Source: Thermoplasmata archaeon (GTDB lineage Archaea; Thermoplasmatota; Thermoplasmata; Thermoplasmatales; Thermoplasmataceae). From it: a DNA stretch of 64,000 nt. Shown here piece after piece: positions 1,245 through 14,740 of this stretch. Both the position numbers and the translations under genes were made by a program. A model generated the notes under the pieces. The model did not search any database. It saw only the letters and a list, made by a program, of their open reading frames with translations, and was not told where the DNA came from. The stretch is from contig JAJZZM010000005.1 of NCBI GenBank assembly GCA_021797555.1, positions 1-64,000 on the forward strand. Direction: 5' to 3'. How positions within the stretch are numbered: the first letter of the stretch is position 1; every line of letters begins with the position of its first letter.

Positions 1245-1437
1245 TAATAAAATTTATTGACAATTATTATATTTAAATATTTCATAGATTTATATTTTTA
1301 TAATAGGATTTCTATGTGTAGAAATAGACATTATTTGCAGGTATAATTTTATGTATAGAGATATATGGCAATCCTGATGATATTATCCATGTAATATTTG
1401 TTACGCTAAAGAAATCATGAAAAACCTTATTTAGCCT

Positions 1438-1600
1438 CAGCTATATGACGATATAGCTGTGAGAATCGGAGGCGGCTGTTATATCTCTTGACCTTTAAGG
1501 CCGTGCTAAAGAATAGCCGCCCTTCGACTCGATTTCATACCTCATTAATATTTAATAAGGTGAATAGGAGTTTGTCGAGTCTACGATTCTAAATCTCACA
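1438..1600 (+). ncRNA. Candidate IS110 bridge RNA
   Basis: The leader of the IS110 transposase folds into three consecutive hairpins. The first is a perfect 9-bp stem with a 4-base loop (CAGCTATAT at 1438-1446, GACG loop, ATATAGCTG at 1451-1459). The second is a 10-bp stem with one G-U pair (1471-1480 with 1512-1521) whose large loop contains a CTTTA/TAAAG mini-stem (1493-1497 with 1507-1511). The third pairs 1526-1532 with 1575-1581, and inside it 1539-1548 pairs with 1552-1561. AGAATCG (1462-1468) can pair with CGATTCT (1584-1590) and close the second and third hairpins together. A 5' stem-loop followed by two looped hairpins matches the published architecture of IS110 bridge RNAs, which guide the recombinase to donor and target DNA. 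Transcription is not shown. Confidence 0.65.
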
Positions 1601-1621
1601 GAATCACTAGGAGGTGATTAA

Positions 1622-2776
1622 ATGGTAATAGGTTTGGATGTACATAAACGTTCCGTATACGGAACTGTAATGGAGGATAATGGAGATATTATTGTCCAGA
1701 GAAATATGGAGAATAATATAGAGATGGTCAACGGGTTTTTATTGAATTACAAGGATCATGATGTTGTTATAGAATCATCTACATCAGGAAAATACCTTTC
1801 AAAGGAATTATCAATGCTTGGTTATAAAATACATCTGATAGATCCTGCAAAGGTTCCTGAGATATCAAATAATTACAAGAAAACAGATAAAGAGGATTCA
1901 TTCCAGCTTGCAGATGTATTCAGGAAGGGTGGAATGAAGGAAATATATGTTCCATCGGAAGATATAGAGAATATAAGGTCACTGGTAAGGTATCGTCATT
2001 CCTTAGGAGAGGAATTAACATTGAAGAAGAATAAAATACATGCATTGTTAACATCATATGGAATAATAATAAAAGCTACAGACCCCTTCGGGAAGAAAGG
2101 GTTAAGGGAAATAGAAAATAGTTACAATAATCTCAATTATTCCGATAAAATAGTTTTAAGATCATTATTAAGTGATATATCATCAATCAAGGAAAGGGAA
2201 AAGGAAATAGAATCAGAAATATCAGTAATATCCAATAACAATAATGATATAAAATTATTGATGACAATTCCAGGTATAAACTTCTATACAGCATCAGGAA
2301 TAATATCAGAAATAGGAACAATCAACAGATTTAAAAATAAGCTTAAGTTTGCATCATATACCGGTTTAATACCCAAGGAGCATTCATCAGGTGAAAGAAC
2401 AGTTAAGGGACATATAACAAAGCATGGTCCATCCTTATTGAGGTTCTTTTTAGTCGAAACAGCGCATTCATTGATAAGGTTTACAAAGAAGTTCAAATCT
2501 AAATATCTCAGCATAGTAAGAAGACTGGGAAAGAAGAGAGCAATAATAGCAATAGCAAGGATATTGGCAGAAACAATTTATATAATGCTAAAGAACAATA
2601 CAAGATATATTGAAAAGGAAAGAACTGAAACAGTCAATCCTGATGAACTATACTTCAAGAGGCTTGAAGAACTATCATTGAAAAAAATAAACAATATGAA
2701 TAAACTTGCTAAAAATGCTCAAGTGCATGGCGATTCAGCAAATTTAATATACAAGAGAGGCATAAAAGATTGTTAA
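1622..2776 (+). CDS. IS110-family transposase (DEDD recombinase)
   Basis: A 384-residue intact transposase. The N-terminal RuvC-like DEDD domain shows Asp6 (GLDVHKRSV), Glu51 (VVIESSTSG), Asp89 and Asp92 (KKTDKED). The C-terminal Transposase_20 domain has the IPG (217-219) and SYTGLIPKEHSSG segments, with the likely catalytic serine at 255 or 256. Enzymes of this family excise and insert the element through a bridge RNA rather than terminal inverted repeats. An AGGAGGTGA sequence lies just upstream of the ATG at 1622, which is unusual here because most neighbours look leaderless, and may reflect translation from the long structured transcript. A decayed paralogue lies at 14.0-14.7 kb and a more distant IS110 fragment at 42.5 kb. 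Confidence 0.93.
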   Translation: MVIGLDVHKRSVYGTVMEDNGDIIVQRNMENNIEMVNGFLLNYKDHDVVIESSTSGKYLSKELSMLGYKIHLIDPAKVPEISNNYKKTDKEDSFQLADVFRKGGMKEIYVPSEDIENIRSLVRYRHSLGEELTLKKNKIHALLTSYGIIIKATDPFGKKGLREIENSYNNLNYSDKIVLRSLLSDISSIKEREKEIESEISVISNNNNDIKLLMTIPGINFYTASGIISEIGTINRFKNKLKFASYTGLIPKEHSSGERTVKGHITKHGPSLLRFFLVETAHSLIRFTKKFKSKYLSIVRRLGKKRAIIAIARILAETIYIMLKNNTRYIEKERTETVNPDELYFKRLEELSLKKINNMNKLAKNAQVHGDSANLIYKRGIKDC

Positions 2777-2793
2777 GTACAGGTTTTTCATAG

Positions 2794-3067
2794 GAGAAAT
2801 AGAAAACAATATAGATAAAATAGCAATGCCTGAAAAAATTTACATTGTGTTTGAACTATCAAAGACGGGCAGGGCAAAATTATGAGAATTTTATTCATGG
2901 GGTTATTATTACAAGGCGGTGCATTCCTAGGTATCAAGGAGTTTCAATATTTAGGTCCAATTGGAACTATAAAAAATAAAACCAATGGTCAATAGAAATA
3001 TAAAAATTATTAATTTTAAAATAATTATAAATAACAAATTTAATATAAAATATAATTATAATTATAT
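2794..3067 (+). other. Intergenic stretch after IS110
   Basis: Two short open stretches (about 2827-2885 and 2881-2994) are present but neither resembles a family I know. The last 70 bases are nearly pure A+T and probably hold the promoter of the HIT gene at 3068. Confidence 0.4.
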
Positions 3068-13944: not shown

Positions 13945-14019
13945 AGGATGTTAATATATTAATAATATATAAGATTTATACTAATTTATTTAGCCTTATA
14001 CTAAACTATTTTATAATTT

Positions 14020-14740
14020 ATCAGGATTAACCGTTTCCTTTCTCTCCTTTTCAATGTATTTTACATTGTTTTTAAGCATTGTATAAATTATCTCTGCCAC
14101 TATTCTTGCTATTATTGATCTCTTCTTTCCAAATATCTTTGCTATGCTGAGATGCTTGCTTTTAAATTTCCTTGTATGCCTTATTAATGAATGTACTGTT
14201 TAAACTAAAAAGAATCCTAAACGGAATGCTCCTGCTTTGTTATATGTCCCCTTATTAACTTTGTGCCTGGATGGTTCCTCTTTAGTTGTTAACCCAGTAT
14301 ATAATGCAAATTTCTCCTTATTATCGAATCTATTAACTGCTCATATTTCCATCAATACTTTATTGCCTAATGGGTCTGTGGCTTTAATTATTGTTCCATA
14401 TGGTGTTAACAATGCATGTATTTTATTATTCTTAAATGTTATTTCTTCTCCTAAAGAATGACTGTACCTTACCGATGACCTTATATTCTCTATTTCCTCT
14501 GATGGAATATATAATTTCATATAATACATTTAACCTGAATAATTCTGCAAGTTTCAATAAGTCTGCCCATCGGTCTTTTTATAACTGTCAGATATTCCAG
14601 AAACCTTTTCCGGGTCTATTAAGTGTATTTTATAATCCGTTTTAATAATTCCTTAGCAAAATACTTACATGATGTTGAAGATTTTGTTACAATATCATGG
14701 CATTATAAATTTTTCCTGCAGGTCTTTAAGGTTTTAACAT
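14020..14740 (-). pseudogene. Decayed IS110-family transposase
   Basis: On the minus strand, broken frames align along the whole IS110 transposase at 1622-2776. Recognisable pieces are KIHLIDPEKV and SYKKTDG (N-terminal domain), IPSEEIENIRSSVRYSHSLG, KIHALLTPYGTIIKATDPLG, and C-terminal pieces around the AEIIYTML and YIEKERKE segments. Several frameshifts and stops interrupt it, and the first 35 or so residues are not recognisable. It is a dead copy closely related to the intact element. No intact bridge-RNA-like leader was seen upstream (14741-14900). The flanking bases 13945-14019 hold the promoter region of the permease at 13944. Confidence 0.85.

Follow-up and report, generated by a model that had tools for sequence, protein, structure and literature searches.

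An IS110/IS1111-family element of Thermoplasmata with a putative bridge RNA upstream of its transposase gene and an IS1111-like guide order

Introduction

IS621, a member of the IS110 group (PMC11208160, PMC11208158), encodes its bridge RNA upstream of the transposase gene (tnp), with a 5′ stem-loop followed by a target loop and a donor loop. Each loop has two split guides that join at a dinucleotide core (CT in IS621), and in the target loop the longer guide is on the 5′ side; subterminal inverted repeats (sTIR) are absent from the IS110 group or only 2–3 bp long. In the IS1111 group, the seekRNA (e.g. of ISEc11, ISPa11 and ISKpn4) is downstream of tnp, a complement of the top strand lies 5′ of a match to the bottom strand, and each end has an sTIR of 11–13 bp and an extension, 7 bp on the left and 3 bp on the right (PMC11187229). 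This guide order is the reverse of that in IS621, and many IS1111 elements place their donor guides in a multiloop (PMC11208160). PMC11187229 also mentions exceptions: upstream noncoding regions in the IS1111 group (ISMtsp17), and sTIRs in elements of IS110 type.

Here we describe an element within a 64,000-nucleotide stretch of DNA (the window; positions 1 to 64,000 of contig JAJZZM010000005.1, assembly GCA_021797555.1) from a Thermoplasmata archaeon. It is similar to IS621 in the location of the RNA, the succession of stem-loop, target loop and donor loop, and the split guides with the longer 5′ guide in the target loop, but differs in having a mirrored guide order, an enclosing multiloop stem, a perfect 11-bp sTIR and an AG core. 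It resembles the IS1111 elements in guide order, sTIR length, the 7/3 extensions and the use of a multiloop, and departs from them in that its RNA is upstream of tnp and its transposase is longer and outside the sampled IS1111 clade. ISMtsp17, ISHvo10, ISAcp5 and the IS110-type elements with sTIRs share with it upstream or double noncoding regions together with sTIRs; these are compared by description only, and the accessible part of PMC11187229 does not state their guide order.

Results and Discussion

The element and its ends

The window contains a complete insertion sequence (Table 1). When copies whose flanks are unrelated are compared, the left end is (AG)AAATC-ATGAAAAACCT and the right end is AGGTTTTTCAT-AGG(AG), with the AG core dinucleotide at 1410–1411 and again in the flank at 2795–2796. 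The 11-bp sTIR is inset by 7 bp on the left (AGAAATC) and 3 bp on the right (AGG). A search with joined flanks identified uninterrupted sites in three relatives, each with a single AG and one of them 100% identical across 182 nt, and these indicate insertion without net duplication beyond the core. No empty site for the window copy itself was found in a search within the genus.

The transposase gene is intact, and only 18 bp of the element (2777–2794) follow its stop codon. The predicted product has both a DEDD RuvC-like domain and a Transposase_20 domain, which places it in the IS110/IS1111 superfamily, and residues D6, E51, D89, D92 and S256-G257 (the SG motif) are present by motif.

Table 1. 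Coordinates of the element and its predicted features in the window
Feature	Position	Strand	Remarks
Insertion sequence, complete	1410..2794	+	1385 bp; ends set from copies with unrelated flanks; boundary rule confirmed by empty sites of three relatives
Left sTIR ATGAAAAACCT	1417..1427	+	Perfect inverse of 2781-2791
Putative bridge (seek) RNA, conserved structured region	1434..1601	+	182.7 bits with covariance model R1, the building set of which includes the window itself; covarying stems; fold z -4.6
5′ stem-loop CAGCTATAT-GACG-ATATAGCTG	1438..1459	+	9 bp, 4-nt loop; compensatory changes in 6 of 9 pairs
Enclosing stem AGAATCG/CGATTCT	1462-1468/1584-1590	+	Forms multiloop containing both guide loops
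Putative target-binding loop, 10-bp stem GGCGGCTGTT/AATAGCCGCC	1471..1521 (1471-1480/1512-1521)	+	Hypervariable large internal loop; 7 of 10 pairs compensatory
Putative right-target guide GTTATATCT + CT pairing core	1478..1488	+	Predicted right target AGAGATATAAC; best scan result 1480-1486
Putative left-target guide GCTAA + core AG	1505..1511	+	Identical to left flank GCTAA/AG (1405-1411)
Putative donor-binding loop, stem GACTCGA/TCGAGTC	1526..1581 (1526-1532/1575-1581)	+	Window fold, covariation
Putative right-donor guide GATTTC	1531..1536	+	Complementary to left end GAAATC (1411-1416)
Putative left-donor guide ATAGGAG	1564..1570	+	Same sense as right end ATAGG/AG (2790-2796)
Hairpin AATCAC/GTGATT	1602..1619 (arms 1602-1607/1614-1619, 6 bp)	+	Pairs part of Shine-Dalgarno GGAGGTGAT (1610-1618)
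DEDD transposase/recombinase gene	1622..2776	+	384 aa; PF01548 E 9.5e-21, PF02371 E 8.9e-23; open frame
Right sTIR AGGTTTTTCAT	2781..2791	-	Perfect inverse of 1417-1427

Several other features of the element and its relatives were observed. Decayed copies are present in the same genome (L019, at G000:C10 near 299432; L086, at about 14011–14699 of the window; L083, L084, L085 and L082). The sequences on either side of the intact copy (1351–1409 and 2797–2883) resemble broken pieces of reading frame (e.g. one ending in KIYIVFELSKTGRAKL and a stop codon), and the element may interrupt a decayed gene. A repeat similar to TGGYTATGGATAGTTTAAAC lies next to element fragments at differing points (L105, L085, L082 and L088:12657); it may be a preferred target or a mobile repeat in its own right. 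Two copies, L104:505-667 (G006:C23) and L107 (G005:C1:1366769-1366931), consist of the leader only; both break off precisely at AATAGGAG, a donor-loop segment that is a repeat of the right end CATAGGAG. In L104, the sequence that comes next, AGTTGCATAA, is the copy's own target guide in reverse complement. Each could be a 163-bp mini-element; alternatively, a deletion may have occurred between the two ATAGGAG repeats that the design itself entails. Paired related RNA genes are arranged head to head with ~45 bp between them in L093:2122-2487 and L182:200-565, apparently where one element has inserted at the end of an element of a different subfamily (left end CTACT).

A conserved RNA fold in the leader

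A sequence-only reading of the window had proposed that the leader folds into a 9-bp hairpin with a 4-base loop, a 10-bp hairpin with a large internal loop and a third looped hairpin, all enclosed by an AGAATCG/CGATTCT stem, and all four are present where it had placed them. The minimum free energy of 1438–1600 is −52.9 kcal/mol, whereas the value for dinucleotide shuffles is −35.4 (z −4.57) and all 200 shuffles are less stable; chance hairpins were rejected. The stems had also been described as GC-rich relative to their surroundings, and the GC content of the RNA is 42%, compared to ~19–30% in the flanking DNA and 26–37% in the gene. A search of the leader against Rfam matched no family.

Compensating base changes among related copies, whose absence the same reading had named as refuting its proposal, are abundant. 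Unconstrained RNAalifold pairs the enclosing and donor stems differently, and covariation was therefore counted on the window fold without prediction. In 23 leaders, 18 of the 41 pairs are changed on both sides, and the 79 double-change cells exceed the 21.6 ± 3.8 of shuffled data; aligned in the conserved frame, these leaders have 91.9% pairing cells, compared to 84.2% in shuffles. The covariation signal is lost when the 3′ partners are slid by 1–3 columns.

Target-loop guides match the insertion flanks

In copies that are ~90% identical, both sides of the target loop are hypervariable within a conserved frame. Letters on the 3′ side recur, in the same sense, where the left flank ends, and those on the 5′ side are found in reverse complement where the right flank begins. 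When true pairs of leader and flank are compared with re-dealt pairs in a fixed register, z is 6–7 for the left (N = 32) and ~5.4 for the right (N = 18), values reached by 0 of 20,000 shuffles; these shuffle statistics ignore the kinship of the copies, the insertion sites of which are largely independent. The fixed register was picked by eye, and we therefore scanned all leader columns and offsets on both strands. The top-ranking of 6080 tests against left flanks is 1505–1509, same sense, with flank positions −5 to −1 (z 4.99), and the top-ranking of 5348 tests against right flanks is 1480–1486, reverse complement, with flank positions +1 to +7 (z 4.99). Besides the core, ~3–4 nt of the left flank and as many as 7 nt of the right flank carry signal.

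Further copies were located with the covariance model, 25 of which had not been used before. The left guide matches in these held-out copies (N = 25, p = 2e-5), and the right guide, for the five with a readable right end, matches with p of 0.017–0.033 when 0–2 nt of slack is permitted, and fails without slack. In the window copy, the right flank AGAAATAGAAA matches the guide at five of seven non-core letters, plus the core. There are also copies that do not match their own flanks, such as G008C32b (2.5/8) and G020a (1.5/8), for which decay, gene conversion or leader exchange between copies, or misassembly are possible explanations.

We note two further observations on the right flanks. The intact copy in the window has a guide that fits the right flank of the decayed remnant L019, AGAGATATAT. 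In several copies (L199, L198, L192, L196, L096 and L092) the right-target match is 1–2 nt off the AG core, a displacement that fixed-register pairing does not account for. The spacing of the core and the right target seems to be flexible, in a way that is not described for IS621.

The location of the RNA ahead of tnp, which it shares with the IS110 group, would also suit a bridge RNA with the standard IS110/IS621 order, where the left target is specified by the 5′ side of the target loop and the right target by the 3′ side, and in the pooled set the 5′ side has a weak left-flank signal (z 2.8). However, z is 0.8 on the held-out left flanks, the right flanks have no signal (z −1.9 to 0.2), and the mirrored order has z of 5–9 and is also that of the donor guides; we consider the standard order extremely improbable.

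Donor-loop guides and the element ends

Left ends occur in four states, ATGTC (21 copies), AAATC (14 copies), GTGTC (two copies) and AGGTC (one copy), and for each of them the 5′ side of the donor loop is the exact reverse complement (z 8.7 overall). The 3′ side is ATAGGAG in the window's genus, where the right end is AGGAG, and ATAGAAG elsewhere in the family, where the right end is AGAAG. Because the 5′ side of the donor loop complements the left end and its 3′ side equals the right end, the target and donor loops share the same mirrored order.

Immediately behind the leader is a further, covarying hairpin (Table 1), which, like the exact ends of the element, is absent from the sequence-only reading. 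Its arms are AATCAC/GTGATT in the genus of the window, and many relatives have AACCAC/GTGGT instead. It hides part of the ribosome-binding site and probably limits transposase synthesis. Some translational control is thus likely, and the whole leader could be regarded as no more than a structured 5′ UTR or attenuator that regulates the transposase gene and has no guides. Loop segments that match the insertion flanks of each copy and covary with its ends are not expected of such a UTR, and this explanation is very unlikely. The leader is instead best read as the bridge (seek) RNA of an intact IS110/IS1111-family element, and the bridge-RNA role proposed earlier is upheld at the level of sequence by the covarying structure, the matches of loop to target flank and the covariation of loop and element end. 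Its likeness to the layout of IS110 bridge RNAs, also proposed, extends to the position upstream of tnp and the two guide loops, but not to the guide order, which is that of IS1111 and the reverse of IS621.

Relationship to the IS1111 group and distribution

Anatomically, the arrangement is an IS1111-style reading order on an RNA at the IS110 position, and it shows RNA location and guide order to be separable. As a positive control, the same reading of L128, an IS1111-type plasmid element with a 12-bp sTIR and the RNA downstream, returned the published IS1111 order; the guide order of IS5708 (L126) was not readable from one copy.

One explanation is that the element is a plain member of the IS1111 group with an RNA gene that has merely been relocated upstream (cf. 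ISMtsp17). The 11-bp sTIR, the 7/3 extensions and the guide order all fit IS1111 (PMC11187229). In a tree of 26 transposases with few references, from which G020 was left out, the window lineage is outside a 100/100 clade that the five sampled IS1111-type proteins form on their own, although a joint clade with them is not rejected (p-AU 0.094). The protein is also 384 aa in length, compared to 330–350 aa for IS1111. Simple IS1111 membership is therefore conceivable but rather doubtful. We lean towards a distinct lineage centred on the archaeal order of the window (Thermoplasmata), which would combine an upstream IS110-type RNA with the mirrored order and long sTIR of IS1111, as either an intermediate or a third architecture; guide order would then be tied to the sTIR and end anatomy and not to RNA location, and 0–2 nt of slack between core and right guide would be tolerated.

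There are ~25 relatives of the leader in the genus, and a wider family set has transposases that are 46–51% identical. Of 117 genomes sampled from the order, 39 have a match to the RNA model, representing 20 of 33 genera, and copies throughout the order have the RNA located upstream of tnp. In a sample of 390 genomes of the phylum there is only one match outside the order; these large sets were searched with stricter filters, and weaker relatives elsewhere may be missed. The copies derive partly from metagenome-assembled genomes, and the named records of the close copies are all of this kind, from Thermoplasmata. A search of the literature other than preprints found no paper on this arrangement in Thermoplasmata.

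Proposed mechanism and significance

We propose that the leader very probably gives rise to a bridge RNA that acts together with the DEDD recombinase of the adjacent downstream gene, using mirrored guides and an AG core. The 5′ side of the target loop would pair with the top strand of the right target and the 3′ side with the bottom strand of the left target, the two meeting at AG. In the donor loop, the 5′ side would pair with the left end and the 3′ side with the right end, at the joined ends of an excised circle. The predicted target is TTACGCTAA-AG-AGATATAAC, the predicted donor is AGGTTTTTCATAGG-AG-AAATCATGAAAAACCT, and the predicted circle junction is ...CATAGG-AG-AAATCATG.... A complex of recombinase and RNA would bring an AG-centred target together with the circle junction, and strand exchange at AG would leave the element between two AGs. 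Transcription of the leader, binding by the recombinase, the circular intermediate and catalysis of strand exchange are presumed by analogy with IS621 and ISEc11.

The archaeal group that harbours these elements is known for acidic, often hot habitats. The family provides sets of naturally reprogrammed archaeal guides and targets, and a bridge recombinase from such a host is directly testable. The two known groups have been divided by RNA location, sTIR and guide order, features that co-occur in those elements that have been tested to date. Their uncoupling in one family would tell which of them mechanistically belong together, and bears on the origin of one group from the other.
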